The notes: generated by a model from the sequence alone, not told the origin. DNA of 64,000 nucleotides from Spirochaetaceae bacterium (GCA_015493635.1 WGCU01000032.1:1-64000), one strand, 5' to 3'; shown: positions 137 through 18,237, counted from the stretch's first letter. Numbers and translations: made by a program.

Positions 137-1120
137 TGCGGGAATCAACACCATGTCCTCATTAAGAAAGCAGGTTATTTAGAGAAAAATGAAAGATTCT
201 ATATAAATCCGGGGAAGCGGACCAGTGTTGATGGTTCACTTATCCAGGCAATTCCTTTTGCATCAATCAGGACTGACGGAAGAGAGGAGGACTGGGAAGG
301 TATTCCTCCTTTAATTGTTGATAGTGTTGGAGATAATATTAATGCTCCCGGCGGAACTGACATAAGAGAAGTTTTTGCGGCTACTGACGGAATATATCTT
401 TATACAAAAATAAATCTTGCAGACGGTGTCCCATCCACAAAACCATTGTATTATGCAATAGGTATGCAATCTTTAGATAATTCTTTTTCACGATTATTAT
501 TTACTCAATATAATGATCATGGACATTGGGTGACTGGGGTGGATAAGTGGACTAATAAATCTACTGGGCAGCATAAGCAGATTGGAAAGGGATTTATCAG
601 ATCACGGGGTGAAATTATTGAAGCACGTTACAAGCTTAAAGATATAGGAATTGAACTGGATCAGGCTTTACTAATCAACGCATGGGATGATTCCTCCGGG
701 ACGAGCTATGACAATACCTCTCAATCAAAGATAGTTTGGACTAATCACTCACAAGTCTTCACTGTAAAAGGTAAAATAAGGGGGATAAGAATTGATGAGA
801 GAAGTCTGTCTCCTATGTTGCTGAGCCCCCCTGATGAAGGTATATTAAAAATATCTCTTTACAATAAAAATAGTGAAAAAATAGGGATCGAATTCAAGCC
901 TGGTAAAATAAAGGTTGGCTATCATCGAATTAAGGAAAGGGATTACGCTTTTAATGTTTTCAGTCCAATAATACAGAAAGCTGAAGGATATAGTGGCAAT
1001 TTAGTAAGTGGAAAGCTCAATATTTTTGAAAACAATGATGATTGGATTACTGGCTATTATAATTTTACTTCGAATGCCAATGATACCATCTCCGGATTTT
1101 TCTCTGTAAAAAAGAGATGA
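137..1120 (+). pseudogene. 5'-truncated gene, secreted-type beta-sandwich protein
   Basis: One frame stays open from the stop at 134-136 to TGA at 1118-1120 (about 327 codons), but no ATG or GTG with a ribosome site begins it. The nearby ATGs (136, 153, 189) are in other frames and stop at once. The first possible initiator is a TTG at 446, which would cut through the conserved-looking part. The segment near codons 45-60 reads DGREEDW, then GIPPLIVD, which resembles CBM9/DOMON-like beta-sandwich domains; this is a resemblance only. I read it as the 3' part of a gene that lost its 5' end. The stop codon TGA is formed at the junction with the repeat element that follows, so the original C-terminus may also be altered. 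Confidence 0.55.
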
Positions 1121-1269
1121 AAGGTATCAATACCCCAGGGTAAACCCTGGAACCAGTCCGCTATTGCGGCCTGTTCCGCAGCAAGCTGCGGGGTGTTTTA
1201 ACCTTTCGTTCTCTGCACTCGATTGAGAACGGGACCACCAAGCTGTTCCGTTCCACTCACTCGTTTGAG
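1119..1269 (-). mobile_element. ~150-bp structured repeat, copy 1
   Basis: This is the same element as at 9618, 12514, 14759 and 17082, here inverted. Read on the minus strand it starts CTCAAACGAGTGAG after ATT and ends CCTTTC before AT. The loops differ from the other copies but the stems are kept. The hairpin CCGCGGC/GCCGCGG of other copies is CCGCAGC/GCTGCGG here. The hairpin CCAGGGC/GCCCTGG is CCAGGGT/ACCCTGG, and GGAGCGGGA/TTCCGTTCC becomes GAACGG/CCGTTC. The long closing stem is less perfect than in copies 3-5. It touches the preceding reading frame, whose TGA uses its terminal bases. Confidence 0.85.
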
Positions 1270-1303
1270 AATAAAGTTCCTGCCGAACTAATTTAACAGC
1301 GGT

Positions 1304-2719
1304 TCAGGTGGAAAGATCGTAGCTCTCTCCGTACTTGACAATATGTACATCTTGTACCCCTATCTCAAGAAGTACACGCTTCAGATTGTCCTGTGCCTTT
1401 TTTTCACCGTGAACCAGGAAGATCTTTTTAAGCTTTTTCAGATCAAGATTGGAGACGTACTCCCTGATCTCGCTGTAATCCGCGTGGGCGCTGAAGGCGT
1501 TGATGGTTTCCACCCGGGCGTTGAGTTTTTTCCACTGATTAAAGATCCGTACTTCTTTCTGCTTTTCGAGTATTCTTCGTCCAAGGGTGTGTTCGGCCAT
1601 GTATCCGACAATAAGAATCGTATTGTCAGGGTTTTCTATGTTGCGTACAAGATGGTGCCGTATTCTTCCTGCCTCGCACATACCGTCGGCAGAGATTATA
1701 ATTGCAGGACCCTTTACATCATTGATTTTTTTTGATTCCTGAACACTTGAGGTATAGGTAAGTTTATTAAATCCAAAAGGATTTTTATGATGCCGGATAA
1801 ACGCATCGTTTGTAGCTTTATCATAACATTCCTGATGTACTCTAAAAATAGTGGTTGCGTTGGCGGCCATGGGGCTGTCCACGTAGATGGGGATGTCCGG
1901 AATTATCTTTTTATCCGTAAGAAGATGCAAATAGTAGATAAGTTCCTGTGTCCGTTCTATGGCAAAGGAAGGAATAATTATTTTTCCGTTTTTCCGGGCC
2001 GTTGAATTTACCACTTCACCAAGGGTATCAAGAGCTTCATTAACCTTCTCGTGGAGTCTGTCCCCGTAGGTGCTTTCCAGAACAAGATAGTCAGGAGTCG
2101 GGATAATGTCCGGATCCCGGATAATGGCTTTGTTTTTGCGTCCAAGATCTCCCGAAAAGGCAATATCCACCGTATCTCCGGACTGTGTTTTTACCGTGAG
2201 GCAGGCAAGCGCGGACCCGAGAATATGTCCCGCATCATAAAAGGTAAGTTCAGCCTCCGGTATAATGAAGAGGGGTCTGTGATAGGAGAGCGTGATAAAC
2301 TGATTCTGGGCGTTTATAACATCATCCTCAGTATACAGCGGTTCATCCGTAAAGGTTTCATTGTTCTGTGCAGCTTTTTTTGAAAGATACTCAATATCTC
2401 TGGCCTGGATATGGGCACTGTCCATCATGATGAGGGACGAGAGATCTCTTGTAGCGGGGGTTGCAAAGATATTTCCGGAATAACCTTTTTTTGTCAGCAG
2501 CGGCAGCATGCCGCAATGGTCGAAATGCGCGTGGGTCAGTACCACTGTGTCCACCTTTTCAATATTTTCGGCAATATGTCTGTTTTTTGCTTCCGCTTCT
2601 TTCCTTTTTCCCTGGAATGCACCGCAGTCTATCTGGATGGTTTTCCCGTCAATTTCCAAATAATGTCTGGACCCGGTAACTTCCTGGGCAGCACCTTTCG
2701 AGTAGAGTTTTATGCTCAT
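1304..2719 (-). CDS. MBL-fold beta-CASP RNase-like metallohydrolase
   Basis: This 471-residue protein has the metallo-beta-lactamase zinc motif THAHFDHCG at about residues 62-70, an STYGDR motif near 216, a beta-CASP region in the middle and an RMMBL-type C-terminus with SAHADYSE near 411 and VHGEKKA near 437. This is the layout of the YSH1/CPSF73-like bacterial hydrolases, many of which cut or trim RNA; the substrate here is unknown. It is cytosolic, with no signal peptide. The start is well set: AGGAGG lies 6 bases before ATG. It diverges from the transposase fragment at 2821 and is not in an operon. Confidence 0.88.
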   Translation of the reverse strand: MSIKLYSKGAAQEVTGSRHYLEIDGKTIQIDCGAFQGKRKEAEAKNRHIAENIEKVDTVVLTHAHFDHCGMLPLLTKKGYSGNIFATPATRDLSSLIMMDSAHIQARDIEYLSKKAAQNNETFTDEPLYTEDDVINAQNQFITLSYHRPLFIIPEAELTFYDAGHILGSALACLTVKTQSGDTVDIAFSGDLGRKNKAIIRDPDIIPTPDYLVLESTYGDRLHEKVNEALDTLGEVVNSTARKNGKIIIPSFAIERTQELIYYLHLLTDKKIIPDIPIYVDSPMAANATTIFRVHQECYDKATNDAFIRHHKNPFGFNKLTYTSSVQESKKINDVKGPAIIISADGMCEAGRIRHHLVRNIENPDNTILIVGYMAEHTLGRRILEKQKEVRIFNQWKKLNARVETINAFSAHADYSEIREYVSNLDLKKLKKIFLVHGEKKAQDNLKRVLLEIGVQDVHIVKYGESYDLST

Positions 2720-2820
2720 GGATGTCCTCCTGAAAAACAGTATACTTCCAATTGCCTGAAAAGCAAACTATTCTTTCCGGGACTTGTCCTGTTGTCCCCT
2801 TCTGTGGTAGAATCCTGCTG

Positions 2821-3261
2821 ATGAAAACTCCGGTTATATCCGATGTGTATAAACTATTTCCCACAAGAGAATCGTGTATCCGGTTTATTGAGCATGTCAG
2901 ATGGAAGAATAAACCTGTCTGCCCTCATTGCGGTTCGTACCGGGTAAGTACCATGAGCAGGGAGTCGAGGTATCACTGCAACAGTTGTAATACTTCCTTC
3001 TCCGTTACCGTGAAAACCCTGTTTCATAATACACGGATTCCCCTGCAGAAGTGGTTCCTTGCGTTGGAGATATTTTCAGCCTCAGAAAAAAAACTGAGTG
3101 CCCGGTCACTGGCGGAAATGGTCGGCGTAAACAAGGATACTGCCTGGGCCATGCTTAACAGGATGCGGGAAGCGTTTACCGAGTACGGAGAGCTTTTGGG
3201 GCAGCTTGTTGAATTCGGAGAACGGATGCTGGGGCAGAAAGCATTGGAAAGAAAGCCTTAG
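2821..3261 (+). CDS. IS1595-type transposase N-terminal part (truncated or domesticated)
   Basis: The 146 residues match the N-terminal half of IS1595-group transposases. There is a zinc ribbon CPHCG...CNSCN (about residues 36-60) that normally binds the target, then a helix-turn-helix-like stretch with SLAEMVGVNKDTAWAML. The DDE catalytic half that should follow is missing; after MREAFTEY the protein ends within about 25 residues. No terminal inverted repeats are visible around it. Either it is the remnant of an insertion sequence or a small DNA-binding protein kept by the host. ATG at 2821 is chosen because the family alignment begins there; an in-frame ATG at 2752 would add unlike sequence that overlaps the divergent promoter region. 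Confidence 0.65.
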   Translation: MKTPVISDVYKLFPTRESCIRFIEHVRWKNKPVCPHCGSYRVSTMSRESRYHCNSCNTSFSVTVKTLFHNTRIPLQKWFLALEIFSASEKKLSARSLAEMVGVNKDTAWAMLNRMREAFTEYGELLGQLVEFGERMLGQKALERKP

Positions 3262-3342
3262 ACCAAAGATGCGGCAGCTGATACGTTTTTTTAAAATCTT
3301 ATTCTACCGTGGAGTGGGACAAATAAGTGAGGAAGGGATAGC

Positions 3343-6300
3343 ATGGATAACAGCAGAGATAGAATACTTGGTATAGATACCGGCTCAGTAATGGTGAGCG
3401 TTGTGGAAGTTGATCTTGAAGGTACTGTTTTGAAGACTTCGTACACACCTCATGAGGGGAAACCCGCCGAAGTACTGACAACCCTTTTAAAAGGCGTGTC
3501 CCTGGAACGGGTCGCGGGGATCGGCGGGACAGCATCAACACCGGATGTCATTGAAGGTATGAGAAAATATGATAACAGAGTTGCCGTTATAGAGGGAGCT
3601 AAGAAGTTTTATCCTGATCTGGATGCTGTTTTAAATGTAGGGGGAGAAAAGTATTTTCTTACCTCTTTTCATAAAGACGGCAGCTACCGCAGCTTAAAGT
3701 CCAATACCTCCTGTGCTGCAGGGACAGGAGGATTCCTTGATCAGCAGGCAAAGCGGCTGAATCTTGCCGGCGGCAGTTCGGAATTAAGTGAAAAGGCCCG
3801 TGCGAACAGAGGTGATATTCCTAAAATTGCTTCCCGGTGTTCTGTATTTGCCAAGACAGATATCATCCATTCCCAGCAGGAAGGGTATTCACTGGAGGAA
3901 ATATGTGACGGTCTCTGTCAGGGGCTTGCTCATAATATTGCTGATACGCTTCTCGAAGACAGTACCGAATTAAAAAAAATTGTTTTTTCAGGAGGAGTTG
4001 CCTTAAACAAAGCTGTTATTCAGCATCTTGACAAACGGTTACAACGGCCGCTTCTTGTACATGAGTATTCGCACCTTTTCGGAGCGTTGGGGGCCGCCTT
4101 TTTTCTTATTGCGGAAGGGGTAGATGAACTTTCAGAAGGTTATACCGCAAAATCCATCAAAAAACCGGTACGCAAAGAGAAGGAATATTACTATGAACCT
4201 CTGAAACTGACATTAACCGACTATCCTGATTTCAGAGGCGTTGATCATTATAACTTCGGACCTTCAAACGGCAGTGTCGAGGTTGAAGTGGATACCTATA
4301 CTGATATGGCCTCTGAAAAAGAGCTCCGCGTGTTTATGGGAATTGATATAGGTTCTACTTCTACCAAGGCGATCCTGACTGATGCATCGTTAACCCCGGT
4401 GGCAGGTTTTTATACCCGGACAGCTGGAAGACCCATCCCGGCAGTACAAAGCATCTTTGAGGCAATAACAAATCTGCAAAGGGAGAAAGATGTCACCTTC
4501 TTGTTTGAGGGAGTAGGAACCACCGGATCCGGAAGAAAATTCATTGGAAAGCTGATAAGTGCTGATATCATACTGGATGAGATAAGTGCTCACGCGAGAG
4601 CAGCGTACGGCTTAAATCCGGAAGTGGATACCATTATAGAGATCGGCGGACAGGATGCGAAGTTTACAACCCTCCGTAACGGTGTTGTAACCTTTTCCCA
4701 GATGAATACCGTATGTGCAGCAGGAACCGGAAGCTTTATAGAAGAGCAGGCGGGAAAACTCGGTGTCTCTCTTGCAGACTATTCATCACTGGCAGAAGGG
4801 GCCCGGGCTCCGCTGGCCAGCGACCGGTGTACCGTTTACATGGAGCGGGATATCAATCATTATCTGCACCAGAATTATTCCATTCAGGAAATACTGGCAA
4901 CGGCTCTCTTTTCTGTCCGGGAGAACTATCTGCAGAAGGTTGCCACCGAAGGCAATATCGGCAGAAACGTAGTTTTCCAGGGAGCTACCGCAAAAAACAG
5001 GGCTCTTGTTGCGGCTTTTGAGCAGAAACTAAAGCGGCCGATTTTTGTCTCGAAGTACTGTCATTTAACCGGTGCTCTTGGCGCGGCCATTACGTCCATG
5101 GAGGAAAAGACAGGAGTAACCACATTCAAAGGCCTTGAAATCTATAAGGAGGAAATTCCTGTCCGGTCGGAAACATGCAGTCTCTGTCTGAATCACTGCA
5201 GAATACGGGTAGCCACCGTACAGAATGAAGATGTTGCCTACGGATTCCTCTGCGGCAGAGATTACAATACAAAGAAGTATGTAAAAAAGGAGAAGGTCCC
5301 TGCTCTCCTGACGGTAAGAAAGAAAGCGGCGGCAGCGGTTAAAATGCCGCTTCACGACGGGAGATCAAGAGGGGAAAACCCGGTAGTGGGGATTCCGGCA
5401 GGGCTCCAGATTTTTGAGGAACTGCCCCTCTGGAAAAGATTCTTTATGGAGCTGGGTATTGAGACGGTTTCAACCGAAGGGGTGAAAGATGTTATTCCTT
5501 CGGGAAAAGAGATTGTAGAAGCGGAGTTCTGCGCGCCTATGACAGCTTTTCACGGGCATGTCCGCTATGCTGCCGGGCATGCTGATGTGGTTTTCCTGCC
5601 CATCCATCTCGAAAGTGATAAGGATGATAAAAATCCCTCCCGTCTCAGGAAGTACTGTTATTACACGCAGTTCAGCTCTGTTGTTACAAGCAGCATAAAG
5701 GTTGATGGAGAGAAAATTAAATCCATGAGGCCGGTGATAAACCACAAAGGAAGTGTACTTCATACTAAATATGAGCTTTTTAAAGCGGTAAAAGAGTATT
5801 TTCCCGGTATGTTCGGGTTCCGTGATATTTCGAAAGCCTATGACAGCGGTCTTGACTATTACCGCACTCTGAAACGTAAAATGAAGGAACTGTATTCTGA
5901 TCCGGAAGAGGGGAAAATGAAGGTCCTTCTGACCGGAAGACCGTATACCATTCTTTCGGAAGCGATGAATAAGGGGATCCCTGATTTCTTTGCCGCTTTA
6001 GGTATTGAAACCGTCTACCATGATTCACTGCCCCAGACCGGATCGGTAAGTGATGATGTAGACAAGATTCTGGATCTGTTCCACTGGGCGTATCCTGCTG
6101 CCATACTGGAAGCGGCAGATTACTGTGCGCATACCGACGGGCTGTACCCGGTGTTCGTTACATCCTTTAAATGCTCCCCCGATTCTTTTGCTCTGGAATA
6201 CTTTAAACGGATTATGGACAGCCATGAAAAACCGTACCTTATTCTGCAGATAGACGAACATGATTCAAATGTCGGGTACGAAACACGTATAGAAGCGGGG

Positions 6301-7593
6301 ATTCGGGCATTCAGGAACCATCTGAAATCGGGAACATCAGGTCAAAAGAAAACGGTGAAATTCCCCATTGCACCGGAAGTTCATGAGAACCTGAAGGGGA
6401 AAACACTGCTTCTTCCCAACTGGGATCCTTACGTACTGCCTCTTGTTGCGGCAAACCTCCGGAATGCGGGAATAGACGCACGGGTTCTGGAAGAAACTCC
6501 GACAATGATTGCAGCAAGCATGAGAATGAATACCGGGCAGTGTATTCCTGTTAATGCCATTGCCCATGAGTATGTCGAATACATAAAAAAACACCGTCTC
6601 GACCCCGGAAAGACGGTACTCTGGATGGCTAAATCAGTATGGGCGTGCAATATAACGATGTATCCGGCATTTATAAAGAGCATGATAGAAAAAGAGGGCG
6701 CTGGTGATGCCGGCGTATACACCGGAGAGCTTACGATGGTTGAGATCAGTCCCCTCGTTTCCCTTAAACTCTACTTTGCTTTTATGTTCGGGGGAAATCT
6801 GAAAAAAATAGGCTGTATGATCCGTCCCTACGAAATCAACAAAGGGCAGACCGACCAGGTTCTGGAAGAAGCCCGGGACATTCTCATGCATGCGTTCCGA
6901 GAGGGGAACGGGTTTCTGGAAGCGGTAAAAAATGTTATTGCGAGAATTGATGCAATTCCGTACCGGAAAACGAACCGTCCGAAGGTTGCAATTTTCGGTG
7001 ATTTGTACGTCCGGGATAACGAGGTGATGAACCAGGATCTTGTAAAGTATATTGAAGACGCCGGAGGAGAAGTACTGTTAACACCGTACAACGAATACGC
7101 GAAGATAATAAGCGGAGCTGTATTCCGGAGATGGATCAAAAGTCTGAATATCCCCCAGGTAATCATGTTCAAAACCCTGCTGGGAGCAATGGAGCTCCTT
7201 GAAAGCCGGTATCACGGATATTTTGAGAAATATATCGGGAAACCCGTCAGTTCAAAGAATCCTTTTGCTGAGGAGGAACTCGGTAGATTCAATATCAGGA
7301 TCGAACAGGAAGGTGAAAGTTATGAAAACGTCCTTAAAATATTCAAGATATTAAAACTGCACCCTGATGTATCACTTTTTATCCAGACAAATCCCGCTTT
7401 CTGCTGCCCTTCACTCATTACGGAAGCCATGAGTAAGGAGATAGAAGAGGTAACCGGTGTCCCTGTCTTGACTATAACCTACGATGGAACAGAATCGCCC
7501 AAAAACGATGTCATTATACCGTACCTGAAATATTCTCCTTTCTACAGGGAGCAAGCCGGAACGACCCGTTCCTCACTGGAAGAAGCATTGTAG
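3343..7593 (+). CDS. acyl-CoA dehydratase activase-related protein, double BadF/BcrA ATPase + DUF2229
   Basis: The 1416 residues contain two complete BadF/BadG/BcrA/BcrD ATPase domains (about 5-265 and 328-590). Each has the DIGS/DTGS phosphate motif and an NT(S/V)CAAGTG loop whose cysteine (about 124 and 459) in activases helps hold a 4Fe-4S cluster. A cysteine-rich DUF2229 segment follows (about 605-900, starting CSLCLNHC). A C-terminal region resembles the HgdB-type dehydratase subunit. Small homologues energise electrons for 2-hydroxyacyl-CoA dehydratases; these large fused forms are common in anaerobes but their substrate is unknown. AGGAAG sits 7 bases before the ATG. It is a single-gene unit ended by the terminator at 7599-7633. 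Confidence 0.88.
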   Translation: MDNSRDRILGIDTGSVMVSVVEVDLEGTVLKTSYTPHEGKPAEVLTTLLKGVSLERVAGIGGTASTPDVIEGMRKYDNRVAVIEGAKKFYPDLDAVLNVGGEKYFLTSFHKDGSYRSLKSNTSCAAGTGGFLDQQAKRLNLAGGSSELSEKARANRGDIPKIASRCSVFAKTDIIHSQQEGYSLEEICDGLCQGLAHNIADTLLEDSTELKKIVFSGGVALNKAVIQHLDKRLQRPLLVHEYSHLFGALGAAFFLIAEGVDELSEGYTAKSIKKPVRKEKEYYYEPLKLTLTDYPDFRGVDHYNFGPSNGSVEVEVDTYTDMASEKELRVFMGIDIGSTSTKAILTDASLTPVAGFYTRTAGRPIPAVQSIFEAITNLQREKDVTFLFEGVGTTGSGRKFIGKLISADIILDEISAHARAAYGLNPEVDTIIEIGGQDAKFTTLRNGVVTFSQMNTVCAAGTGSFIEEQAGKLGVSLADYSSLAEGARAPLASDRCTVYMERDINHYLHQNYSIQEILATALFSVRENYLQKVATEGNIGRNVVFQGATAKNRALVAAFEQKLKRPIFVSKYCHLTGALGAAITSMEEKTGVTTFKGLEIYKEEIPVRSETCSLCLNHCRIRVATVQNEDVAYGFLCGRDYNTKKYVKKEKVPALLTVRKKAAAAVKMPLHDGRSRGENPVVGIPAGLQIFEELPLWKRFFMELGIETVSTEGVKDVIPSGKEIVEAEFCAPMTAFHGHVRYAAGHADVVFLPIHLESDKDDKNPSRLRKYCYYTQFSSVVTSSIKVDGEKIKSMRPVINHKGSVLHTKYELFKAVKEYFPGMFGFRDISKAYDSGLDYYRTLKRKMKELYSDPEEGKMKVLLTGRPYTILSEAMNKGIPDFFAALGIETVYHDSLPQTGSVSDDVDKILDLFHWAYPAAILEAADYCAHTDGLYPVFVTSFKCSPDSFALEYFKRIMDSHEKPYLILQIDEHDSNVGYETRIEAGIRAFRNHLKSGTSGQKKTVKFPIAPEVHENLKGKTLLLPNWDPYVLPLVAANLRNAGIDARVLEETPTMIAASMRMNTGQCIPVNAIAHEYVEYIKKHRLDPGKTVLWMAKSVWACNITMYPAFIKSMIEKEGAGDAGVYTGELTMVEISPLVSLKLYFAFMFGGNLKKIGCMIRPYEINKGQTDQVLEEARDILMHAFREGNGFLEAVKNVIARIDAIPYRKTNRPKVAIFGDLYVRDNEVMNQDLVKYIEDAGGEVLLTPYNEYAKIISGAVFRRWIKSLNIPQVIMFKTLLGAMELLESRYHGYFEKYIGKPVSSKNPFAEEELGRFNIRIEQEGESYENVLKIFKILKLHPDVSLFIQTNPAFCCPSLITEAMSKEIEEVTGVPVLTITYDGTESPKNDVIIPYLKYSPFYREQAGTTRSSLEEAL

Positions 7594-7598
7594 GGAAT

Positions 7599-7633: not shown

Positions 7634-7654
7634 CAATACATTAAAACTGATGTA

Positions 7655-9556: not shown

Positions 9557-9617
9557 GTGCTAAAGCATACCCTATCAGGCACTGTTATGCAACAATTACA
9601 CCCGGGACTGTTTTATT

Positions 9618-9770
9618 CTCAAACGGAGTGAGTGGAGCGGAACAACTTGTTGGTTTCTGCCCTAAGCGAGTGCAGAGAACGAAAGGTTGAAATATCCCGC
9701 GGCTCTGCCGCGGAATAGGCCGCTATAGCGGCTCAGGGAAAGGGTTTACCCTGGGGTATTGAAACCTTTC
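9618..9770 (+). mobile_element. ~150-bp structured repeat, copy 2
   Basis: The element is preceded by TTATT and followed by AT. It starts CTCAAACGGAGTGAG and ends AAACCTTTC. Its hairpin 3 is AGGGT/ACCCT where copies 3-5 have AGGGC/GCCCT, a paired change. Its right end lies inside the 3' end of the EamA gene: the last codons and the TAA stop (9746-9748) of that minus-strand gene are element sequence. Confidence 0.88.
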
Positions 9771-10654
9771 ATGGTAACAGCCTGGGATACAAACATACCG
9801 CTCAGCATGAGAGCACATCCGGCTGCGCTTCGAAAATCCATTACCTCACCAAGGAAAATCCATCCGCCTACAACAGCAAAAATCCCTTCCAGACTGAGAA
9901 TAATGGCAGCATGGGCCGGGTGAGCTTCCTTCTGGGCAAAAATCTGCAGTGTGTATGCTATCCCTACCGAAAAGAAACTTCCGTAGAAAATGGGAACCCA
10001 GGCCTGAAGAATGGTCTGTACCGCTACCGGTTCAATAAACCCTGCTGTAACAAGGCTCAAGACTCCGCAGAAAAGGTACTGAATCACTGCCAGCTTCAGC
10101 GTATCCACCCTGGGAGAGATAACTGCCATGGCAAGGACATGGGCCGCCCAGAAGAACGCGCTTAAAAAGACGAGAAAATCCCCTTTCGCAATGGAAAATC
10201 CCCCCCGTATACTCAGAAGGTACAGACCGGTAATGGAAAGAACCGCCCCGACCCAGCGGCTGGTGCTTGTTTTATGGCCTAGAAAAATACCAAGAAAAGG
10301 GACAATAACCACGTACATTCCGGTTATAAACCCAGCTTTACCTGCTGTAGTGTACACAATTCCCGCCTGCTGCAGGGATGCCCCCAGAAAAAGAAAGCTC
10401 CCTGCCAGTGCTCCGTACAGAAAAAGCTGTTTTGCCGTCCCCCGCTGCGGTTTGGCCTGCTTGCTGCGTTTTTCTTTTCTGTTGAAGTAGAGAATAAGGG
10501 GGGCAATGGAGACGGCTCCCAGTATAAAACGGACACCGTTATAGGTAAAAGGACCGATATACTCCATTCCAACCCGCTGGGCGGCAAAAGCGAGACCCCA
10601 GATAACGGCTGTGGACAGGAGCATCATGTCATTTTTAAGTACACGTGTGTTCAT
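9746..10654 (-). CDS. DMT-superfamily (EamA) transporter with element-derived C-terminus
   Basis: About 302 residues with ten hydrophobic segments arranged as two EamA repeats, the fold of RhaT/YdcZ-like drug/metabolite exporters. Typical motifs are AVIWGLAFAAQRVGMEYIGP near the start and EGIFAVVGGWIFLGEVM in the last quarter. The substrate cannot be read from sequence. MNTRVLKND at 10654 is preferred to an ATG at 10687, which would add a non-membrane leader. The last residues, KGFNTPG, and the stop codon are encoded by repeat copy 2, so the natural C-terminal tail has been replaced. All ten membrane segments seem intact, so the protein may still work. It diverges from the HAD gene. Confidence 0.85.
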   Translation of the reverse strand: MNTRVLKNDMMLLSTAVIWGLAFAAQRVGMEYIGPFTYNGVRFILGAVSIAPLILYFNRKEKRSKQAKPQRGTAKQLFLYGALAGSFLFLGASLQQAGIVYTTAGKAGFITGMYVVIVPFLGIFLGHKTSTSRWVGAVLSITGLYLLSIRGGFSIAKGDFLVFLSAFFWAAHVLAMAVISPRVDTLKLAVIQYLFCGVLSLVTAGFIEPVAVQTILQAWVPIFYGSFFSVGIAYTLQIFAQKEAHPAHAAIILSLEGIFAVVGGWIFLGEVMDFRSAAGCALMLSGMFVSQAVTMKGFNTPG

Positions 10655-10760
10655 GGGTGGTACTATAAAGGTATAGCCGGATATCATTCAAGTGCTCTTT
10701 ACCGGGAAATCATGTACCCGGCTGCTTGCAGAACCGCATACTCATGTGATTATATACCGT

Positions 10761-11573
10761 ATGTTAAAACCAGACCTTGAAAAAATCAGAGCTGTTGCCC
10801 TCGATATGGACGGAACCCTCCTGAACGATCAAAAGGAAATAACGCCCGCAACAAAAAGGTGTATTGAGCGCCTGCAAAAGAAGGGGATTTATCCCATTCT
10901 CGTTACCGGCCGCAGTTTTGAAGCGCTGAAGCCCTTTAAGGAGGCTCTCGGCCTCCGCACTCCTGTTATCAGCTACAATGGAGCACAGATAGTGGACGGT
11001 ATAACAGGAAAGCTGCTGCAGGATTCTCCCCTTTCCGATACAAGCAGCCGCTTCATTCTGGAACTGGCCCGCAGGGAGAATATCCATGTACAGGCCTACC
11101 GGAACGGAACACTCTACTTTGAACGGCACCGTCCTGAATCGGAACACTACGAGAGCCATGTCAATCTGAAAGGAGAAGTGGTGGACTTTGACAGTCTGGA
11201 GCCCCTTAAATTTACCAAGATGATGTACGTCGGAAAGCACAGTGTCCTGGAAAAAATGAAAGATACTGTTCTGGCGGCAGTCGGCAGTACTACCGCCGTG
11301 ATGTTTTCCAATGACGAGTTTCTTGAGTTTATGTCCAAAGATGTATCAAAAGGGAAGGCGCTTCTTGCTGTTCTTTCCCTTCTCGGCCTTTCTCCGAAAG
11401 AGGCCATTGCCTTCGGAGACGGTGACAACGATATTCCGCTGCTTGAGACCGCCGGTATAGGGGTTGCCATGGAAAATGCTTCCCTGTCTGTTAAAAAAGC
11501 AGCGGATTTTACCGCTCCCTCCAACAATAATGACGGTATCGCCCGGTTCCTGCATCCCCTGTGCGGTTCCTGA
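10761..11573 (+). CDS. Cof-type HAD-IIB phosphatase
   Basis: About 270 residues with HAD motif I DMDGTLLNDQ near residue 13, a C2B cap domain in the middle, and motif IV GDGDNDIPLL near 225. Such Cof/YbiV-like enzymes dephosphorylate sugar phosphates, flavin or pyridoxal phosphates; specificity is unknown. The ATG at 10761 begins the family-like part; an upstream ATG at 10692 would add 23 unlike residues. It is monocistronic and followed by a GC-rich repeat. Confidence 0.85.
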   Translation: MLKPDLEKIRAVALDMDGTLLNDQKEITPATKRCIERLQKKGIYPILVTGRSFEALKPFKEALGLRTPVISYNGAQIVDGITGKLLQDSPLSDTSSRFILELARRENIHVQAYRNGTLYFERHRPESEHYESHVNLKGEVVDFDSLEPLKFTKMMYVGKHSVLEKMKDTVLAAVGSTTAVMFSNDEFLEFMSKDVSKGKALLAVLSLLGLSPKEAIAFGDGDNDIPLLETAGIGVAMENASLSVKKAADFTAPSNNNDGIARFLHPLCGS

Positions 11574-11606
11574 AGGTTGAATGCTGTTGTTCTTTTTTTT
11601 GGGGGG

Positions 11607-11706
11607 GGGAAGGATTCCCCCTCGCTTCGGAAAGCCTGAACCGCCCCTTCTCCGGGCTCGGTTACCCTCCGCCCGCGGGGCGGGGCTGTTCCTCCGCTCC
11701 CCCCTC
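11607..11706 (+). repeat. GC-rich repeat B, copy 1
   Basis: A ~90-bp segment (from the CCCCCTCGCTTCGG stretch to TCCGCTCCCCCCTC) closely matches 18353-18445. It starts with a hairpin of G-run and C-run (GGGGG AAGGATT CCCCC) and holds the near-palindrome CCGCCCGCGGGGCGG. It carries no reading frame that is kept in the other copy. A homopolymer of nine G precedes it and may be length-variable. Confidence 0.7.
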
Positions 11707-11794
11707 AGCGCATGCTCCGCTACATGCTCACACTCATCTCCTTCTGAGTCTACCATGTTCTCAATGATTAATTCTGTGTCATTCACATTTGTCC

Positions 11795-11838
11795 TTGACA
11801 GAACGGATAACATGGCGGATCTTTATTGTCAGGAGGCG
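11795..11838 (+). promoter_or_regulatory. repeated leader with -35-like box and strong ribosome site, copy 1
   Basis: TTGACA (11795-11800) is followed by AACATGGCGGATCTTTATT and CAGGAGG. Very similar sequence stands at 13883 and 17813, before unrelated or decayed genes. The -35 box is convincing but no standard -10 is obvious (GATCTT lies at the 17-bp spacing). The CAGGAGG serves the Uma2 gene at 11845. Confidence 0.5.
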
Positions 11839-11844
11839 TGACCC

Positions 11845-12429
11845 ATGGAGACATCACCTGAAAAGCTCAATAAAAAATTTACCTATAAAGACTACCTTAC
11901 CTGGCCGGAAGGTGAAAGATGGGAGCTTATTGACGGTGTGGCTTATGATATGAGCCCGGCTCCTTCAAGAACTCATCAATTTATATCGTCATATTTTACC
12001 AGTACTTTTTTTGATTATTTTAAGGGAAAAGACTGTAACGTTTTTGCTGCCCCCTTCGACGTACGGTTTCCCGGCGGGTTTAAGGCGGATGAGGATGTAG
12101 ATACCGTAGTTCAGCCTGATATCTCCGTCTTTTGTGATGAAAAAAAGCTGGATGACCGTGGGGGCAATGGAGCCCCGGATCTGGTTGTGGAAATACTTTC
12201 TCCCGCAACAGCCGCCAAAGATTTAAAGGAAAAGTTTATGCTCTATGAAAGAGCAGGGGTTAAAGAGTACTGGGTTGCGGACCCGGCCAATAAAACCCTT
12301 ATTGCTTTTATTCTGGGAGATGACGGTACATACGCCCGGGGTGTGGTCTATGCCGGTAAGGATGTCTTGAAAACTGCCCTTTTTGAAGGTTTGGAAATAA
12401 AGATGGAAGAGGTGTTTGAGGAACAGTAA
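11845..12429 (+). CDS. Uma2-family putative endonuclease (PD-(D/E)XK fold)
   Basis: The 194 residues have the complete Uma2/DUF820 layout: YKDYLTWPEGERWELIDG at the start, DMSPAPSRTHQ, the restriction-endonuclease-like core VVQPDISVFCD, then DLVVEILSPAT with the acidic catalytic residues, LKEKFMLYERAGVKEYWVAD with the lysine, and a short C-terminal strand. Family members are thought to be nucleases, though the biology is largely unknown; they are abundant in cyanobacteria and some spirochaetes. AGGAGG lies 8 bases before the ATG. This is the only intact plus-strand copy among at least four related genes and remnants between 11.8 and 18.4 kb. Confidence 0.88.
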   Translation: METSPEKLNKKFTYKDYLTWPEGERWELIDGVAYDMSPAPSRTHQFISSYFTSTFFDYFKGKDCNVFAAPFDVRFPGGFKADEDVDTVVQPDISVFCDEKKLDDRGGNGAPDLVVEILSPATAAKDLKEKFMLYERAGVKEYWVADPANKTLIAFILGDDGTYARGVVYAGKDVLKTALFEGLEIKMEEVFEEQ

Positions 12430-12433
12430 AATT

Positions 12434-12510
12434 GAAAAACCGGATTACTCCCGGATGGATGAGGATGTTTACAGCAAAGTATTTCAGGATGTACGGATCC
12501 CCGACCCGTT
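12434..12510 (+). pseudogene. C-terminal fragment of a second Uma2-type gene
   Basis: Translation gives EKPDYSRMDEDVYSKVFQDV, nearly the same as fragments at 16608 and 18047, where it reads EKPDYYRIDEDVYSKVLRDA. In the last copy it follows MVYRLGSDGIF, which is the C-terminal part of a Uma2 protein. There is no start here. Repeat copy 3 interrupts it at 12514. Confidence 0.6.
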
Positions 12511-12513
12511 ATT

Positions 12514-12666
12514 CTCAAACGAGTGAGTGGAGCGGGACAACTTGTTGGTTCCGTTCCCGAGGGAGTGCAGAGAACGAAAGGTGTCAATACCCTGCGGCTC
12601 TGCCGCGGAATTGGCCGCCATAGCGGCTCACGGAAAGGGCTCTGCCCTGGGGTATTGACACCTTTC
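12514..12666 (+). mobile_element. ~150-bp structured repeat, copy 3
   Basis: The element lies between ATT (12511-12513) and ATT (12667-12669). A long hairpin is possible from GGAGCGGGA (12529-12537) to TTCCGTTCC (12549-12557). The closing stem GAAAGGTGTCAATACCC (12576-12592) pairs with GGGTATTGACACCTTTC (12650-12666) over 17 bp. Between the arms lie three small hairpins: GCGGC/GCCGC, GCCGC/GCGGC and AGGGC/GCCCT. It sits between two convergent Uma2 3' ends; the paralogous junctions at 16608 and 18047 lack it. Confidence 0.9.
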
Positions 12667-12673
12667 ATTCCGG

Positions 12674-13321
12674 TTAAAGCCTGTTTTCTTTGCTGTTTTT
12701 GGAGTACCCCGGTCTTTTTTCTTTCGTTTCCTCAGTATAGTTCTCCATACCGAAAACCTTCTTAAGATTTAAAGAGAGCTCCGGCAGCGCCTGGAAAGAG
12801 GGAGTCCCTTTGTAGTCAAATACTTCCGGTTTCCCGTATTCTCCGTTACTTAAGGAATACTTCCAAACAATCTTCCCGGCGGGATCTATTATCCAGTACT
12901 CTTTTACGCCCCTTTTTTCGTACAGGTCCCGTTTTGTTATCTGATCCCGGGTTGTGCTGGAGGGGGAGAGGATTTCGATTACAATATCCGGGGGACCGGT
13001 AATCCCCTTTTCGGAAAGTTTTTCATCATCGCACAGTACAACAATGTCCGGCTGCACAATAGTGTTTATTTCATCCTCCGGCTCATCTTTTTCAGGTAAA
13101 AAAATGTCGAAAGGGGCGGCAAATACCCGGCAGGGTTTATCCTCAAGAAAATTGGCAATTATTCTGAAAACTTCTCCTGATACCGTTTGGTGTGTTGTTC
13201 CCGGCGCAGGGCTCATGTTGTACGCTTCCCCCTCTATCAGCTCCCACCTCTCATCATCGGACCAATTTTTGTACTGGGCGTAGGTAAAGTAGTCTTTGAA
13301 TTTTTCTTTTGGTACTGCCAT
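12674..13321 (-). CDS. Uma2-family putative endonuclease, minus-strand subfamily
   Basis: About 215 residues with the same fold as the gene at 11845 but clearly a different subfamily: FTYAQYKNWSDDERWELIEG, NMSPAPGTTHQ, the core VQPDIVVLCDDEKL, DIVIEILSPSS, and KRGVKEYWIIDPAGKI, followed by a lysine-rich tail (KEKRPGYSKNSK). The acidic and lysine core residues are all present, so it may be active. ATG at 13321 is used because GGAGG lies 7 bases before it. Its 3' end is copied at 16690-16722 and 18158-18235, and a collapsed version of the whole gene lies at 14915-15000. Confidence 0.85.
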   Translation of the reverse strand: MAVPKEKFKDYFTYAQYKNWSDDERWELIEGEAYNMSPAPGTTHQTVSGEVFRIIANFLEDKPCRVFAAPFDIFLPEKDEPEDEINTIVQPDIVVLCDDEKLSEKGITGPPDIVIEILSPSSTTRDQITKRDLYEKRGVKEYWIIDPAGKIVWKYSLSNGEYGKPEVFDYKGTPSFQALPELSLNLKKVFGMENYTEETKEKRPGYSKNSKENRL

Positions 13322-13372
13322 CAAATACCTCCGTTTACAAAAAAAGTATATACTATGTCTGATATTTAGAGT

Positions 13373-13786
13373 TTACCCCAGAAACCGGTAGACGGTAATA
13401 AGCGCTGTAACAAAAACAAACCCCGAGGTTATCAAAGCAGTCAGCCTGTTGAACCGCTTGTCAATAACCTCAAATCGTCTGTCAATAGCTTCGAACCGCT
13501 TGTCAATAACCTCAAATCGTCTGTCCATGGTCTCAAACCGCTTGTCTGAAGCTTCTAATCTTGCATCTATCCGCTTAAATCCTTCCTCCATCCGGAGTGC
13601 AATCAGTTCAACGTTCTTGCTCAGAGTTCTTATGGATTCTTTTAACCCGTCATGCTCTGCAGCATGCTCCTCCTTTCTGACCGTGGAAGAGAGAAGCAGA
13701 AATATCCCTCTTTTAAGTGATTCAGGGTTTTTAACTTCTACAGCATCGGTAAATTCACCGGTAATAATTTCCGCAAGATCGCTCAT
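13373..13786 (-). CDS. heptad-repeat coiled-coil protein with C-terminal membrane anchor
   Basis: About 137 residues. After an N-terminal segment (SDLAEIITGEFTDAVEV) the chain becomes a coiled coil with regular seven-residue repeats of the form D(K/R)RFE(V/A)I, encoded by DNA repeats of 21-42 bp (about 13458-13545). One hydrophobic segment ends the protein (LTALITSGFVFVTALITVY), giving a tail-anchored shape. Such proteins resemble the 'Hemolysin XhlA/DUF1640-like' coiled-coil class, but I cannot assign a function. The ATG at 13786 gives a better distance to AGGAGG than the ATG two codons upstream. Copy number of the heptads could vary by slippage. Confidence 0.65.
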   Translation of the reverse strand: MSDLAEIITGEFTDAVEVKNPESLKRGIFLLLSSTVRKEEHAAEHDGLKESIRTLSKNVELIALRMEEGFKRIDARLEASDKRFETMDRRFEVIDKRFEAIDRRFEVIDKRFNRLTALITSGFVFVTALITVYRFLG

Positions 13787-13882
13787 ACTCATATCCTCCT
13801 GATTCTATCATGTTCTAAACTATTAATACAGGGAAATATCCTCTGCCGATTCAATGTGTTCAATGTTCAGTAACATTTGTTC

Positions 13883-13915
13883 TTGACATAACTCATAGCA
13901 TGGTGGATCTTTTTC
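13883..13915 (+). promoter_or_regulatory. repeated leader, copy 2 (before the SDR gene)
   Basis: TTGACATAACTCATAGCATGG followed by TGGATCTTT matches the leader at 11795 and 17813. Here it precedes an unrelated dehydrogenase gene, whose own ribosome site AAGGAG is at about 13949. The similarity extends upstream (ACATTTGTTCTTGACA against ACATTTGTCCTTGACA). Confidence 0.5.
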
Positions 13916-13961
13916 ATTAAAAGTCCTGCCTTTTGCGGACATAAAAATAAGGAGAAACCAG

Positions 13962-14714
13962 ATGCAAAATAATGAGACGACCTCTCCATTAATAAAACTT
14001 GCCGGTAAAACTGCTCTTATAACCGGTGCCAGCCGCGGTATCGGGCGGGCAATTGCCCTGCGGCTTTCAAAGGATGGGGTTAAAACTGCATTAGTCAGCC
14101 GTAATAAAAACTCTTTAGGTACCGTAAAGAAGGAAATTGAAAAAAAGGGAGGCACAGCACGAATATATCAATTTGACCTTACTTCTGTATCTGAAATCGG
14201 CGGTTTCGTCAAAAGAGTCGCGGAAGATTTTGGAGGAATAGATATTCTCATAAACAATGCGGGTTTAGCTGATTCAAAACCCTTTGAAAAAACTACAGAA
14301 GCTGAATGGGACAGAATATTTACTGTCAATGCTAAAGCGCCGTTCTTCCTCTGTAAGGAGGCCCTTCCCTATCTTGTTAAATCCGGAGATGCAGGTATTA
14401 TTAATATTACATCAGTTGTTGCAAAAAAAGGGTATCCGGACCAGTCTGTTTATGGTTCATCAAAACATGCCCTCTACGGATTTTCAAAAGCACTTGCCAA
14501 AGAACTTCAGGATAGAGGTATAAAGGTGCATACTGTAGGACCTGGAGGTGTAGCGACAGAGATGGTTACAAGAGTGAGGCCCGATATTAATTCTGATAAC
14601 CTTATTCAACCGGAAGCGATAGCGGAGATCGTTGTATTTCTTCTCACCCTGGGGGGCAATGCAGTTGTAGATGAAATTGATGTCCGGCGTGCAGGGAAAA
14701 CACCATGGGCATGA
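13962..14714 (+). CDS. short-chain dehydrogenase/reductase, FabG-like
   Basis: The 250 residues form a classical SDR: nucleotide-binding TGASRGIG near residue 20, an arginine-containing strand (LVSRN) that suggests NADP(H), NNAG near 92, the catalytic serine in INITS, and YGSSK with the active Tyr and Lys near 166-170. It is close to 3-oxoacyl-ACP reductases, but there is no fatty-acid gene nearby, so the substrate is open. AAGGAG lies 8 bases before ATG. It is isolated inside the repeat-rich segment and is followed by repeat copy 4. Confidence 0.87.
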   Translation: MQNNETTSPLIKLAGKTALITGASRGIGRAIALRLSKDGVKTALVSRNKNSLGTVKKEIEKKGGTARIYQFDLTSVSEIGGFVKRVAEDFGGIDILINNAGLADSKPFEKTTEAEWDRIFTVNAKAPFFLCKEALPYLVKSGDAGIINITSVVAKKGYPDQSVYGSSKHALYGFSKALAKELQDRGIKVHTVGPGGVATEMVTRVRPDINSDNLIQPEAIAEIVVFLLTLGGNAVVDEIDVRRAGKTPWA

Positions 14715-14758
14715 AAAGTTATTGGTATACCCCTGCTTTCTTCTGCTGTCTCTTTATT

Positions 14759-14911
14759 CTCAAACGAGTGAGTGGAGCGGGACAACTTGTTGGTTCCGTT
14801 TCCGAGGGAGTGCAGAGAACGAAAGGTGTCAATACCCCGCGGCTCTGCCGCGGAATAGTCCGCCATAACGGACTGGGTCCAGGGCTTTGCCCTGGGGTAT
14901 TGACACCTTTC
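14759..14911 (+). mobile_element. ~150-bp structured repeat, copy 4
   Basis: The element is flanked by ATT on both sides. The closing stem is the best of the five: 14821-14838 pairs perfectly with 14894-14911 over 18 bp. Inside are CCGCGGC/GCCGCGG (14837-14853), AGTCCG/CGGACT (14857-14874) and CCAGGGC/GCCCTGG (14879-14895). The middle hairpin changes on both arms compared with GCCGC/GCGGC in copy 3. It starts about 45 bp after the SDR stop and is inserted next to a decayed Uma2 gene. Confidence 0.9.
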
Positions 14912-14914
14912 ATT

Positions 14915-15000
14915 TCCATTCCGAAAACCTTCTTAAGCCTTAAGGAAAGTTCCGGCAGTGCATGGCAAGTAGTCTTCGTCTTTTTCTTTTTGTACTGCTA
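14915..15000 (-). pseudogene. collapsed remnant of a minus-strand Uma2 gene
   Basis: Its left part (CCGAAAACCTTCTTAAG) matches the end of the Uma2 gene at 12674-13321, and its right part (AAGTAGTC, then TTTTTCTTTTTGTACTGC) matches the start of that gene. Some 500 bp in between are missing, leaving a scar joining codons near both ends. It shows that these genes are lost by internal deletion. Confidence 0.6.
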
Positions 15001-15050
15001 TATTACTTTACGGAGTTGCTGTCTGTATTAATTGAGTGTATATTTAATGT

Positions 15051-15989
15051 ATGGCGTTTGAACATGATAGAAGATACAAGCGTATATTCTCGTATCCGTA
15101 TTTCCTGCAGAAGCTACTTGAGTCTTTTGTACATGAGTCATTTATAAAAAATCTTGACTTTTCAACTTTAAAACGTGTTGATAAGAGTTTTATTAATTCT
15201 GACTTTCAGGAAAAGGAATCTGATCTCATATTTACCATTCAGTTTAAGAAGAAGACTATATACATATTTCTGCTTCTGGAATTTCAGTCTACTATGGATA
15301 AAATGATGACAGTAAGGTTTTTACGATATATCATGGAATTGTATGAATCCTTTAGGAAAATACCGGAAACAGGCCTATTCCCTGCTGTTTTCCCTGTACT
15401 TCTTTATTCAGGGGATACTTTATGGACTGCAAAAGAGGAAATAAGTTCTTTAATAGAAAAAAGTATCCCGAAAAGATATATTCCCATGTTTAGATATTAT
15501 CCAATATTTGAGAACAAAATACCTAAACAAAGTCTTGAAAAGATACAGAACGCTGTATCAGCCATATTTTATATTGAAAATTCAAGCCCTCAAGAACTGG
15601 AGCAGGAAATAGATATACTTATGGATATAATAAAAGACGAGGACCTGTCAGTAGTAAAAGAGCTTGCTGGATGGTTTAACAACTATTTATCAGGGGTAAG
15701 TGAAAGTATTGATAAAGAAAGTATTTCACAGAAACTGGAAACATTAATGGAGGTAAAAGCAATGTTTGCAACAAAACTAAAAGAGCATGATGAAAAACTT
15801 ATCAAACAAGGGATAGAAAAAGGGATGGAGAAAGGGATAGAAAAAGGGATAGAAAAAGGGATAGAAAAAGGGATAGAAAAAGGGATAGAACGAACCGCCT
15901 TGAATATGCTGGAAGCTGGTATTTCTGTTGAAATTATATCAAAAACTACCGGTTTAACTGAAAAAGAGATATTGCTTCTTTCTGAATAG
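15051..15989 (+). CDS. Rpn-family (Transposase_31-like) nuclease with GIEK tandem repeats
   Basis: The 312 residues match the Rpn/PF04754 family, PD-(D/E)XK proteins whose E. coli members raise RecA-independent recombination by cutting DNA. The N-terminus has FEHDRRYKRIFSYP, and the nuclease core reads KESDLIFTIQFKKKTIYIFLLLEFQS, with Asp, Glu and Gln in the usual places. Near the C-terminus seven copies of GIEK/GMEK/GIER (15810-15893) join the core to a short helical tail (AGISVEIISKTTGLTEKEI). Such repeats and tails are normal for the family. The frame is intact. No good ribosome site precedes ATG at 15051, so expression may be weak. The next gene, a broken Uma2, begins 32 bases later. Confidence 0.82.
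   Translation: MAFEHDRRYKRIFSYPYFLQKLLESFVHESFIKNLDFSTLKRVDKSFINSDFQEKESDLIFTIQFKKKTIYIFLLLEFQSTMDKMMTVRFLRYIMELYESFRKIPETGLFPAVFPVLLYSGDTLWTAKEEISSLIEKSIPKRYIPMFRYYPIFENKIPKQSLEKIQNAVSAIFYIENSSPQELEQEIDILMDIIKDEDLSVVKELAGWFNNYLSGVSESIDKESISQKLETLMEVKAMFATKLKEHDEKLIKQGIEKGMEKGIEKGIEKGIEKGIEKGIERTALNMLEAGISVEIISKTTGLTEKEILLLSE
15810..15893 (+). repeat. seven 12-bp tandem repeats in the Rpn gene
   Basis: The unit GGGATAGAAAAA occurs seven times, units 2 and 7 being variant. Since 12 is a multiple of three, gain or loss of units alters linker length without shifting the frame. Confidence 0.95.
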
Positions 15990-16021
15990 AACTATCATCC
16001 TTGATTCAGGAGGAGCGGCCC

Positions 16022-16603
16022 ATGGAGATATCCCCAAAGAAACTCAATAGGAAGTTTACCTATAAAGATTATCTTTCCTTGCCCGAGGGCGAAAGATGGG
16101 AACTCATTAACGGTGAGGCCTATGATATGAGTCCGGCACCAAGCCGGAGGCATCAAGATATTACCGGAGCTTTGTTTGTCTTGTTGAAGAATTATTTAAA
16201 GGGAAAGGAGTGCAGAGCAACACGGCTCCCTTTGACGTACGTCTTCCCGGCGGGTTTAAGGCGGACGAGGATGTGGAGACTGTAGTTCAGCCTGATATTT
16301 CCGTCTTTTGCGATGAAAAGAAGCTGGATGAGCGCGGGGGTAACGGAGCTCCGGATCTGGTTGTGGAGATTCTTTCTCCCGCAACGGCCTCCAAAGATTT
16401 AAAGGAAAAGTTTTTTCTCTATGAAAGAGCAGGGGTTAAAGAAGTGGGTTGTGGACCCTGTAAACAAGACTCTTACCGTTTTTATTAGAGGAACCGACGG
16501 CAAATATGCCCGGGGTGTGGTCTATGCAGGCGAAGATGTACTAAAAACTTCCCTTTTCGAAGGACTGGAGATCAAGATGGAAGAGGTATTCGAAGAACGG
16601 TAA
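16022..16603 (+). pseudogene. Uma2-family gene broken by two frameshifts
   Basis: This is a close copy of the intact gene at 11845, starting MEISPKKLNRKFTYKDYLSLPEGE with AGGAGG before the ATG. The frame is lost at about 16205-16215, where one base is missing before CCCTTTGACGTACG, and shifts back at about 16433-16442, where two bases are missing in the GTACTGGG codons. Together the three lost bases restore the first frame, which runs to 16603. The catalytic core between the two shifts is read in the wrong frame, so no active protein is expected. It is a very recent inactivation, as the rest is hardly changed. Confidence 0.82.
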
Positions 16604-16607
16604 ATTT

Positions 16608-16722
16608 GAAAAACCGGACTACTGCCGGATAGATGAGGACGTTTACAGCAAAGTACCTCAGGATATCTGAATTCCTGCCTTCTTGTTTAGGTCCTGGTTG
16701 CTTTGTTGTTTTAAAGTAGCCG
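16608..16722 (+). pseudogene. paralogous Uma2 3'-end junction, empty of the element
   Basis: It begins with the codons for EKPDYCRIDEDVYSKV, as at 12434 and 18047. After a short link it carries a worn version of the minus-strand Uma2 3' end (TTGCTTTGTTGTTTT, then AGTAGCC). The same two pieces flank repeat copy 3 at 12514, but here there is no element between them. Confidence 0.55.
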
Positions 16723-16798
16723 CATCTTCAAACTAAAAAATATAATACACTGCAAAAAGCTTCTTGCATTGGGGTTCAATATTTAGTAGATTAAATAC

Positions 16799-17827
16799 AT
16801 GAGAAGAATAGTCAATCAAATATCTGACATATTTGTTCGTTTTCTGCTGGGTTTGGAAGAGAATAAGCCAATTCTTATTGATTTTATAAACACTATTCTT
16901 CTTGATTCGGAATTTGATCCGGTGGTAGATCTTAAAATACTGAATCCTTTTAATTTAAAAGAAGGGTTAGATGATAAAGAAAGTATTCTTGATGTTAAAG
17001 CCGAAGACAAAGCAGGAAGGGTATTTGACGTAGGAATTCAGGTAATAGGAAATGCTTCTTTTGTAAAACGATCACTTTATTCTCAAACGAGTGAGTGGAG
17101 CGGGACAACTTGGTTCCGTTCCCGAGGGAGTGCAGAGAACGAAAGGTGTCAATACCCCGCGGCTCTGCCGCAGAATAGTCCGCCATAGCAGCCTGGGTCC
17201 AGGGCTCTGCCCTGGGGTATTGATACCTTTCATTACTGGGCAAAAAATTATCACAGCCAGCTAAAGGAAAGTGAATACTACAGGATACTTATGCCGGTGG
17301 TGTGTATAAACATACTGGATTTTGTAATTTTTCATGATATTAAAAAAGCCCGCAGTTGTTTTATGGCTACCGAGAAGAACAATCCTGAATACGTATTAAG
17401 TGAAGACTTTCAGATACATTTTTTTGAGCTTGAGAAAATGGATGTAGAAGGTAGCAAAACATTTAAAAACAGGCTTGAGAAATGGGCTTTCTTTTTTAAA
17501 CAAGAGGGTTTTTTGGATGAGGAGGAAGAGATGCAGGTATTATTAAAGAATGACAAGGTAATGGAAAAAGCACATGAATCCTATAAAAAATTTACAGCGA
17601 ATGATAAAATGCTTAAGATGTATGAAGCCAGAGAAAAACGGATACGAGATGAAGTCAGCAATATTGACTATGCCCGTGAGCAAGGCATTGACAAGGGGAT
17701 TGAGGTAACTGCAGTAAGAATGCTCAAAGAAAATGTTGAAATTTCTTTTATTTCCAAAGTTACTAATATTTCAGAGGAAAAACTGCTTGAGCTCAAGAAT
17801 AAAATTTGGAAATTGACAGAACGTTGA
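16799..17827 (+). pseudogene. PD-(D/E)XK nuclease-family transposase gene split by repeat copy 5
   Basis: The first part (16799-17081) encodes MRRIVNQISDIFVRFLLG, the core with DVKAEDKAGRVFDVGIQV (Asp, Glu and Gln of the PDDEXK_2 fold) and GNASFVKRSLY. The second part (from 17235, same frame) continues WAKNYHSQLKESEYYRILMP and INILDFVIFHD, then a helical tail to 17827. Removing the element gives one frame of about 291 residues, the usual length for this family, with the expected YYWAK at the join. Within the element a stop (17186-17188) ends translation. Internal start sites could still yield the second part (for example ATG 17291), but without the catalytic core. Confidence 0.85.
17082..17231 (+). 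mobile_element. ~150-bp structured repeat, copy 5, inside the Rpn-like gene
   Basis: The element is flanked by ATT (17079-17081 and 17232-17234). Removing it with one ATT rejoins the codons for SLYYWAK. It is three bases shorter than copies 2-4 (ACTTG then GTTCC, missing GTT). The closing stem has one G-T wobble. This is the clearest proof that the element inserts into occupied DNA. Boundaries are uncertain by two or three bases, because TTATT on the left and AT on the right recur at every copy. Confidence 0.92.
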
Positions 17828-18235: not shown

Positions 18236-18237
18236 TT

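Follow-up and report, generated by a model that had tools for sequence, protein, structure and literature searches.

Geneless relatives of the IS200/IS605 insertion sequences (IS) have been described as host-specific derivatives of a resident element (PMC3119063; PMC7290912). The palindrome-associated transposable elements (PATEs) of Haloquadratum (PMC3119063) and Halanaerobium (PMC7290912) are each linked, within one organism, to an IS605-type element specific to that host. The hallmarks of IS608 and ISDra2 are insertion 3' of a target word that is kept in the left flank, the lack of duplication and a shared +1 base (TTAC|C with a +1 match of about 70% for IS608, TTGAT|G with about 90% for ISDra2; PMC5934647), and the ISDra2 word TTGAT has been confirmed (PMC2806898). 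Repetitive extragenic palindromes (REPs) are defined as palindromes of 20-40 nt that bear a GTAG or CGTC tag on one side, and their movement is attributed to Y1 enzymes, the REP-associated tyrosine transposases (RAYTs) (PMC3733652). The repeat considered here, five copies of which are found in a 64,000-nucleotide stretch of DNA from Spirochaetaceae bacterium (GCA_015493635.1 WGCU01000032.1:1-64000; hereafter the window), resembles all of these systems in some respects and differs from them in others.

Like PATEs, the repeat is geneless and dispersed, causes no target duplication, carries near-terminal palindromes and may have ends resembling those of IS200/IS605-type elements; in both cases the conserved terminal oligonucleotide is in reality the target word. 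It differs from PATEs in its range of about 16 genera, over which a single fold is kept and in most cases no partner IS is visible, and in that the entire element covaries, not the ends only. With IS608 and ISDra2 it has in common insertion 3' of a kept left-flank word, a matching +1 base, subterminal hairpins and exact sealing of the donor, whereas an internal tnpA or tnpB is lacking, the right-end structure is larger, and the left terminal bases pair at the foot of that right structure. REPs are likewise geneless palindromes, but the repeat has no GTAG or CGTC tag, is much longer, forms a four-way junction and has a defined insertion site. Among IS200-type passengers it is unusual in its breadth and its conserved four-way-junction fold, and the mode of its movement is the main new result of this analysis.

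Copies, boundaries and insertion sites

The sequence-only reading of the window had described five copies of a mobile repeat. All five are present at the places given, with ends that were off by 1-3 bases, but the source genome (G000; 3.27 Mb in 101 contigs) contains about 40 in all, a number derived from 45 matches that include some second or reverse hits on one copy. Identity to copy 4, the reference copy, is 78-100% over the matched part. The unit is about 154 bases long, dispersed and without a coding gene, the open reading frames inside it being due to chance only, and the window's five copies align end to end over about 158 columns. Their positions, with the left target word excluded from each span, are listed below together with the gene that copy 5 interrupts.

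1117-1270, minus strand: copy 1; target TTAT at 1271-1274 on the minus strand; own-genome match E 1.4e-42
9617-9772, plus strand: copy 2; target word TTTAT, last base 9616; own-genome match E 3.6e-40
12513-12668, plus strand: copy 3; target word GTTAT, last base 12512; own-genome match E 3.9e-59
14758-14913, plus strand: copy 4, the reference; target word TTTAT, last base 14757
14754-14757, plus strand: left target word TTAT of copy 4, which stays in the flank, outside the element, as judged from the flank statistics of 71 copies and from empty sites
17081-17233, plus strand: copy 5, inside an Rpn-type PD-(D/E)XK gene, between Leu-Tyr and Tyr-Trp
16799-17827, plus strand: the Rpn-type (PDDEXK_2) gene split by copy 5; excision restores one reading frame

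The repeat is mobile, with exact boundaries and without target duplication. In one carrier genome (G287), a copy splits a remnant of a tnpA gene of which an intact paralogue is present in the same genome. The interrupted and intact forms are identical in 117 of 120 bases across the junction AATTTTAT|TGCC, where exactly 154 bases have been inserted, with none duplicated and none lost. In the window, the removal of copy 5 rejoins the PD-(D/E)XK frame (RSLY|YWAK), and the PDDEXK_2 domain is then recognised across the join with E 1.4e-49. In-frame restoration was also observed for other genes, among them those of an oligopeptide ABC ATPase (ABC_tran, G296) and a DGC-domain protein (G055), in both of which the Pfam domains cross the joins. 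A paralogous Uma2 region at 18010-18240 was considered as an empty site of copy 3 and rejected; the flanks align there, but the spacer differs.

The flanks of 71 copies define the target. The left flank is mostly TT(T/G/C)AT, and in the source genome nearly always (T/A/G)TTAT; T stands at -4 in 70 copies, A at -2 in 69 and T at -1 in 70. The +1 base of the target is T in 60 of the 71 (85%), which is also the first base of the element itself, and the right end of the element reads TCAT or TTAT. The target words used by the repeat include TTGAT, the word of ISDra2. This insertion signature is that of IS200/IS605 single-strand transposition, which is carried out by TnpA, a Y1 HUH enzyme. The earlier view that the repeat is mobile, contains no transposase and is driven from elsewhere is supported, while the statement that no named element has such a form holds only in part: no Rfam family matches the repeat at gathering or relaxed thresholds, but its mobility is of the IS200/IS605 (PATE) kind.

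Four partial copies (C5, C51, C57 and C73) were considered as split autonomous elements and rejected, being deletions that are gene-free inside. Two further loci (L012 and L021; C11 and C12 of the source genome) have identical 40-base left flanks, reaching to the contig start regions, together with different element copies and different right flanks; the shared flank is either an assembly effect or the result of recombination between copies.

Fold, covariation and distribution

One strand of the element can be folded into two parts, whose positions in copy 4 are as follows.

14757-14821, plus strand: P1, helices 1-3; terminal helix TTCTC/GAGAA, a GANNGAG/GANNGAG internal motif and the left hairpin GGAGCGGGAC/GTTCCGTTTCC
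14822-14911, plus strand: P2, helices 4-7; a stem GAAAGGTGTCAATACC/GGTATTGACACCTTTC that closes a four-way junction with three hairpins

P1 and P2 constitute subterminal imperfect palindromes at both ends of the element. An RNA-like fold had been proposed from the sequence alone, and it is borne out by the minimum free energy of copy 4 (z -5.9 on the plus strand and -7.9 on the minus strand), as none of 200 shuffled sequences was equally stable. The 18-bp stem that had been thought common to all five copies is perfect only in those with GTC/GAC (copies 3-5, with an occasional wobble), while copies 1 and 2 have a 3x3 internal loop there. The five window copies are insufficient by themselves to support the paired changes that had been noted in the stems: the RNAalifold covariation term is +2 and two-sided changes occur in 4 pairs only. 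One of the changes listed, GGAGCGG to GGAACGG with a matching partner, is in fact one-sided, from G.T to A-T.

The structure is strongly supported by an alignment (A4) of 32 diverse copies with a mean column identity of 68%. It comprises 53 pairs, and 90.3% of the corresponding cells are paired. Two-sided change is found in 32 of the 53 pairs, and in 17 of the 21 pairs of P1. The alignment contains 215 cells with two-sided change, compared with 67 +/- 7 in shuffles and 29-65 when the partners are slid. The terminal helix itself covaries (TTCTC/GAGAA, TTCCC/GGGAA, TTGCC/GGCAA, TTCGC/GCGAA, TTTACC/GGTAAA). In the internal motif, two copies of GANNGAG oppose each other, and the NN pair varies (GC/GC, AT/AT, AC/GT) while the flanking G and A are mostly kept; the motif probably forms two Watson-Crick pairs with tandem G.A mismatches on either side. 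In palindromes, template-switch correction can also account for part of the compensatory change, without selection. Nevertheless, given the kept GANNGAG mismatches and the helix with arms about 55 bases apart, template switching is unlikely to be the whole story. Among the variants, L220, L221, L226 and L223 have an extra hairpin in P2 or P1 with the closing pairs retained, while in L225, L217 and L039 the inner hairpins are wholly missing, which indicates that the junction tolerates both gain and loss.

A covariance model built from 32 copies (R1) was used to search a sample of 395 Spirochaetia genomes representing 133 genera. The family was found in 30 of these genomes, in 16 genera and at least nine families. 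One carrier (G378) gave a marginal match (E 7e-4) with no family resemblance on reading, therefore a count of 29 genomes in 15 genera is safer. Scoring was limited to seven candidates per genome, a number reached in many genomes, for which seven is therefore a lower bound. In a sample of the whole phylum, searched with a second model, six carriers were found, all within the class. The family was not found in phage and plasmid collections, nor, with exact patterns, in viral contigs.

Proposed mode of movement and its alternatives

The absence of target duplication, the retained 5' TTNAT, the preference for T at +1 and the subterminal hairpins place the repeat with the PATEs. It is likely a PATE-like, non-autonomous transposon that moves as a single strand in the manner of IS200/IS605 and on which a TnpA would act in trans. 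It has the features of a PATE-type passenger of Y1 transposases that can be checked in sequence, except that for one of them, ends shared with an autonomous element, the sequence support is weak. In the proposed mechanism, one strand of 154 bases would fold into the two adjacent structured hairpins, P1 and P2; the end helix of P1 would join the first bases of the element to bases just upstream of P2, and the four-way junction stem of P2 would stop two bases before the element's right end. Cleavage by a Y1 HUH transposase encoded elsewhere would take place 3' of the left-hand TTNAT and 3' of the right-hand TCAT, releasing a single-stranded circle and leaving the donor sealed exactly, and the circle would insert 3' of another TTNAT, preferably TTNAT|T. 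The fold would be the single-stranded DNA substrate of TnpA.

An IS200-like enzyme is the best-supported driver. One candidate partner is an IS200-type element of G287 (614 bp, L228:2819-3432), which encodes a TnpA of 151 aa (Y1_Tnp PF01797, E 2.2e-33) whose relatives in the PDB are Y1 transposases, including that of IS608. The element is inserted in rloB at CTTTTAT|T and has the terminus TTCAT, and the rejoined RloB has a complete domain. Its left end folds like that of the repeat: a small hairpin enclosed by the terminal helix TAAC/GTTA is followed by the spacer AAGGGATTCAAATACC and the hairpin CCGCGGCTTGCCGCGG. A second repeat model (R2) aligns to it weakly (E 0.025), starting exactly at the left boundary, and 35 nt are 89% identical to a repeat copy (blastn, E 3e-5), which is a short motif. 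In G264, elements with a TnpA of the same clade have the left flanks TTTAT|T or TTTGT|T and right ends TTCAT. The target, right terminus and left-end layout held in common with the repeat make the G287 element a good, but not conclusive, candidate partner. Such a TnpA, or a related one that is now lost or absent from most carriers, may be the mover.

Several observations weigh against this interpretation. No genome was found to contain an autonomous element with ends unmistakably identical to those of the repeat, and what links the repeat to the G287 element is one short motif together with the layout, the target and the terminus. The single intact IS200-type TnpA of the source genome (C6) was rejected as a partner on account of its different ends. 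An IS200-like enzyme in the carriers had been suggested in the earlier reading, but no Y1 match was found in 11 of the 30, some of which are 95-99% complete and hold several copies. Y1 genes are weakly enriched (19 of 30 carriers versus 151 of 365 other genomes, p = 0.02, kinship uncorrected). Moreover, IS200/IS605 transposition is not known to require a fold as elaborate as this one. Many carriers, including the source genome, have no matching TnpA. The decayed TnpA of G336, which resembles another IS200 type, was also rejected as a partner. In G369 and G376, IS200-type elements of one spirochaete family (L238, L239 and L236) show palindromes ATACCCCGC..GCGG near TTTAT words, likely another PATE set.

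It is possible, although we put it forward tentatively, that the repeat stands for a widespread class of self-contained, structured mobile elements that move as single strands, in which the whole 154-nt fold, its ends joined by the terminal helix and the tandem-G.A motif, is a compact recognition object for diverse Y1 transposases, or alternatively that the fold has a second life as RNA. If there were one recognition object for diverse enzymes, a geneless element could maintain itself and extend its range within a bacterial class while lacking a partner of its own.

The rival explanation that survives best, although we regard it as rather unlikely, is that the repeat spread as a PATE-like element and that its fold was afterwards kept as a transcribed RNA, acting in mRNA end protection, in regulation or in binding a transposase or another protein. 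The compensatory change that reaches the inner hairpins P2a-P2c and the GANNGAG motif, distant from the ends, speaks for such a role, as do the lineages L221 and L226, which add hairpins with pairing kept, and the intergenic position of many copies. However, the mismatches do not point to one transcribed strand: departures of the G.T type exceed those of the A.C type (78 versus 45, and 52 versus 27), an excess that hints at a strand choice when cells are counted but is not significant by column events, and that does not separate an RNA fold from one of single-stranded DNA. Copies within genes and between them are found in both orientations, no constant neighbouring gene or promoter was seen, and an Rfam match is absent.

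A REP or bacterial interspersed mosaic element (BIME) type of repeat moved by a RAYT would be palindromic, dispersed and geneless as well, and RAYT-like Y1 genes exist in some carriers, for example at L170 of G001, 2 kb from a copy. This origin is improbable, as in the alignments no GTAG or CGTC tag adjoins the hairpins, the unit has 154 bases versus 20-40 and shows no paired arrangement, and the source genome has no RAYT-like gene at the sensitivity of PF01797.

An origin as a miniature inverted-repeat transposable element (MITE) that depends on a DDE transposase, as a cassette of the integron type or as a homing or self-splicing intron would agree with a short, multicopy, geneless unit in which P2 is a large inverted repeat, but it is highly implausible. 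Terminal inverted repeats are missing (TCTCAAAC...CTTTCAT), and exact empty sites, including the G287 site that contradicts such an origin, show no target duplication. Copies that interrupt genes may run with the gene, as in the DGC gene, or antisense to it, as in the ABC gene, which rules out splicing as a general rule, and the Rfam intron families give no match.

The omega-RNAs of TnpB and of IscB (HEARO) elements are mobile structured units of about 150 nt, which are located at the ends of IS200/IS605 elements and, in the case of HEARO RNAs, may be geneless. A remnant of such an element is equally hard to credit for the repeat, which matches them neither in sequence nor in structure (the HEARO model gives no match even at E <= 10, nor in a further search at E <= 1). 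The TnpB zinc ribbon was not found in the source genome or in 26 of the 29 carriers searched, the carriers lack IscB, and RRXRR matches are limited to 3 genomes, inside reading frames about 1,400 aa long that are probably Cas9; this near-absence makes omega-RNA readings unlikely. No copy was seen with a TnpB or IscB gene.

Assignment to the PATE-like single-strand transposons of the IS200/IS605 kind has wider implications. That one elaborate fold is maintained across about 16 genera despite sequence drift, and often in genomes with no partner transposase, suggests that a mobile unit can endure in evolution as a folded strand alone. The family represents a natural mutational scan of the pairs which a single-strand transposase substrate must keep, the exact empty sites offer test material for substrate requirements, and the repeat merits an entry in Rfam or ISfinder.

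Neighbouring genes and repeats in the window

Five of the about 40 genome copies are situated within a 16-kb stretch, which looks like junk or an insertion hot region. Uma2-family genes or fragments are repeated there at 11829-12750, 16006-16706 and 17900-18240, beside Rpn-type genes. A GC-rich second repeat of 63 bp is present at 11644-11706 and 18383-18445, its copies being 95% identical, and it has the string GTTCCTCCGCTC in common with a stretch inserted in P1 of the L222 element (G222); this may be a further mobile repeat of small size.

The element can supply stop codons to neighbouring genes. For the convergent open reading frame at 446-1120 on the plus strand, the TGA is provided by the terminal part of copy 1 (ATGAAAGG), and the EamA gene at 9746-10687 on the minus strand reads into copy 2, with the tail MKGFNTPG-stop. 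No copies of the repeat were found at 38 loci near an EamA homologue in named genome contigs. The region 2752-3261 encodes the N-terminal part, with the zinc ribbon PF12760, of an IS1595-type transposase, probably a remnant, and at 15780-15899 a 12-bp tandem repeat encodes GIEK repeats in a Transposase_31 (YhgA-like/Rpn) gene.

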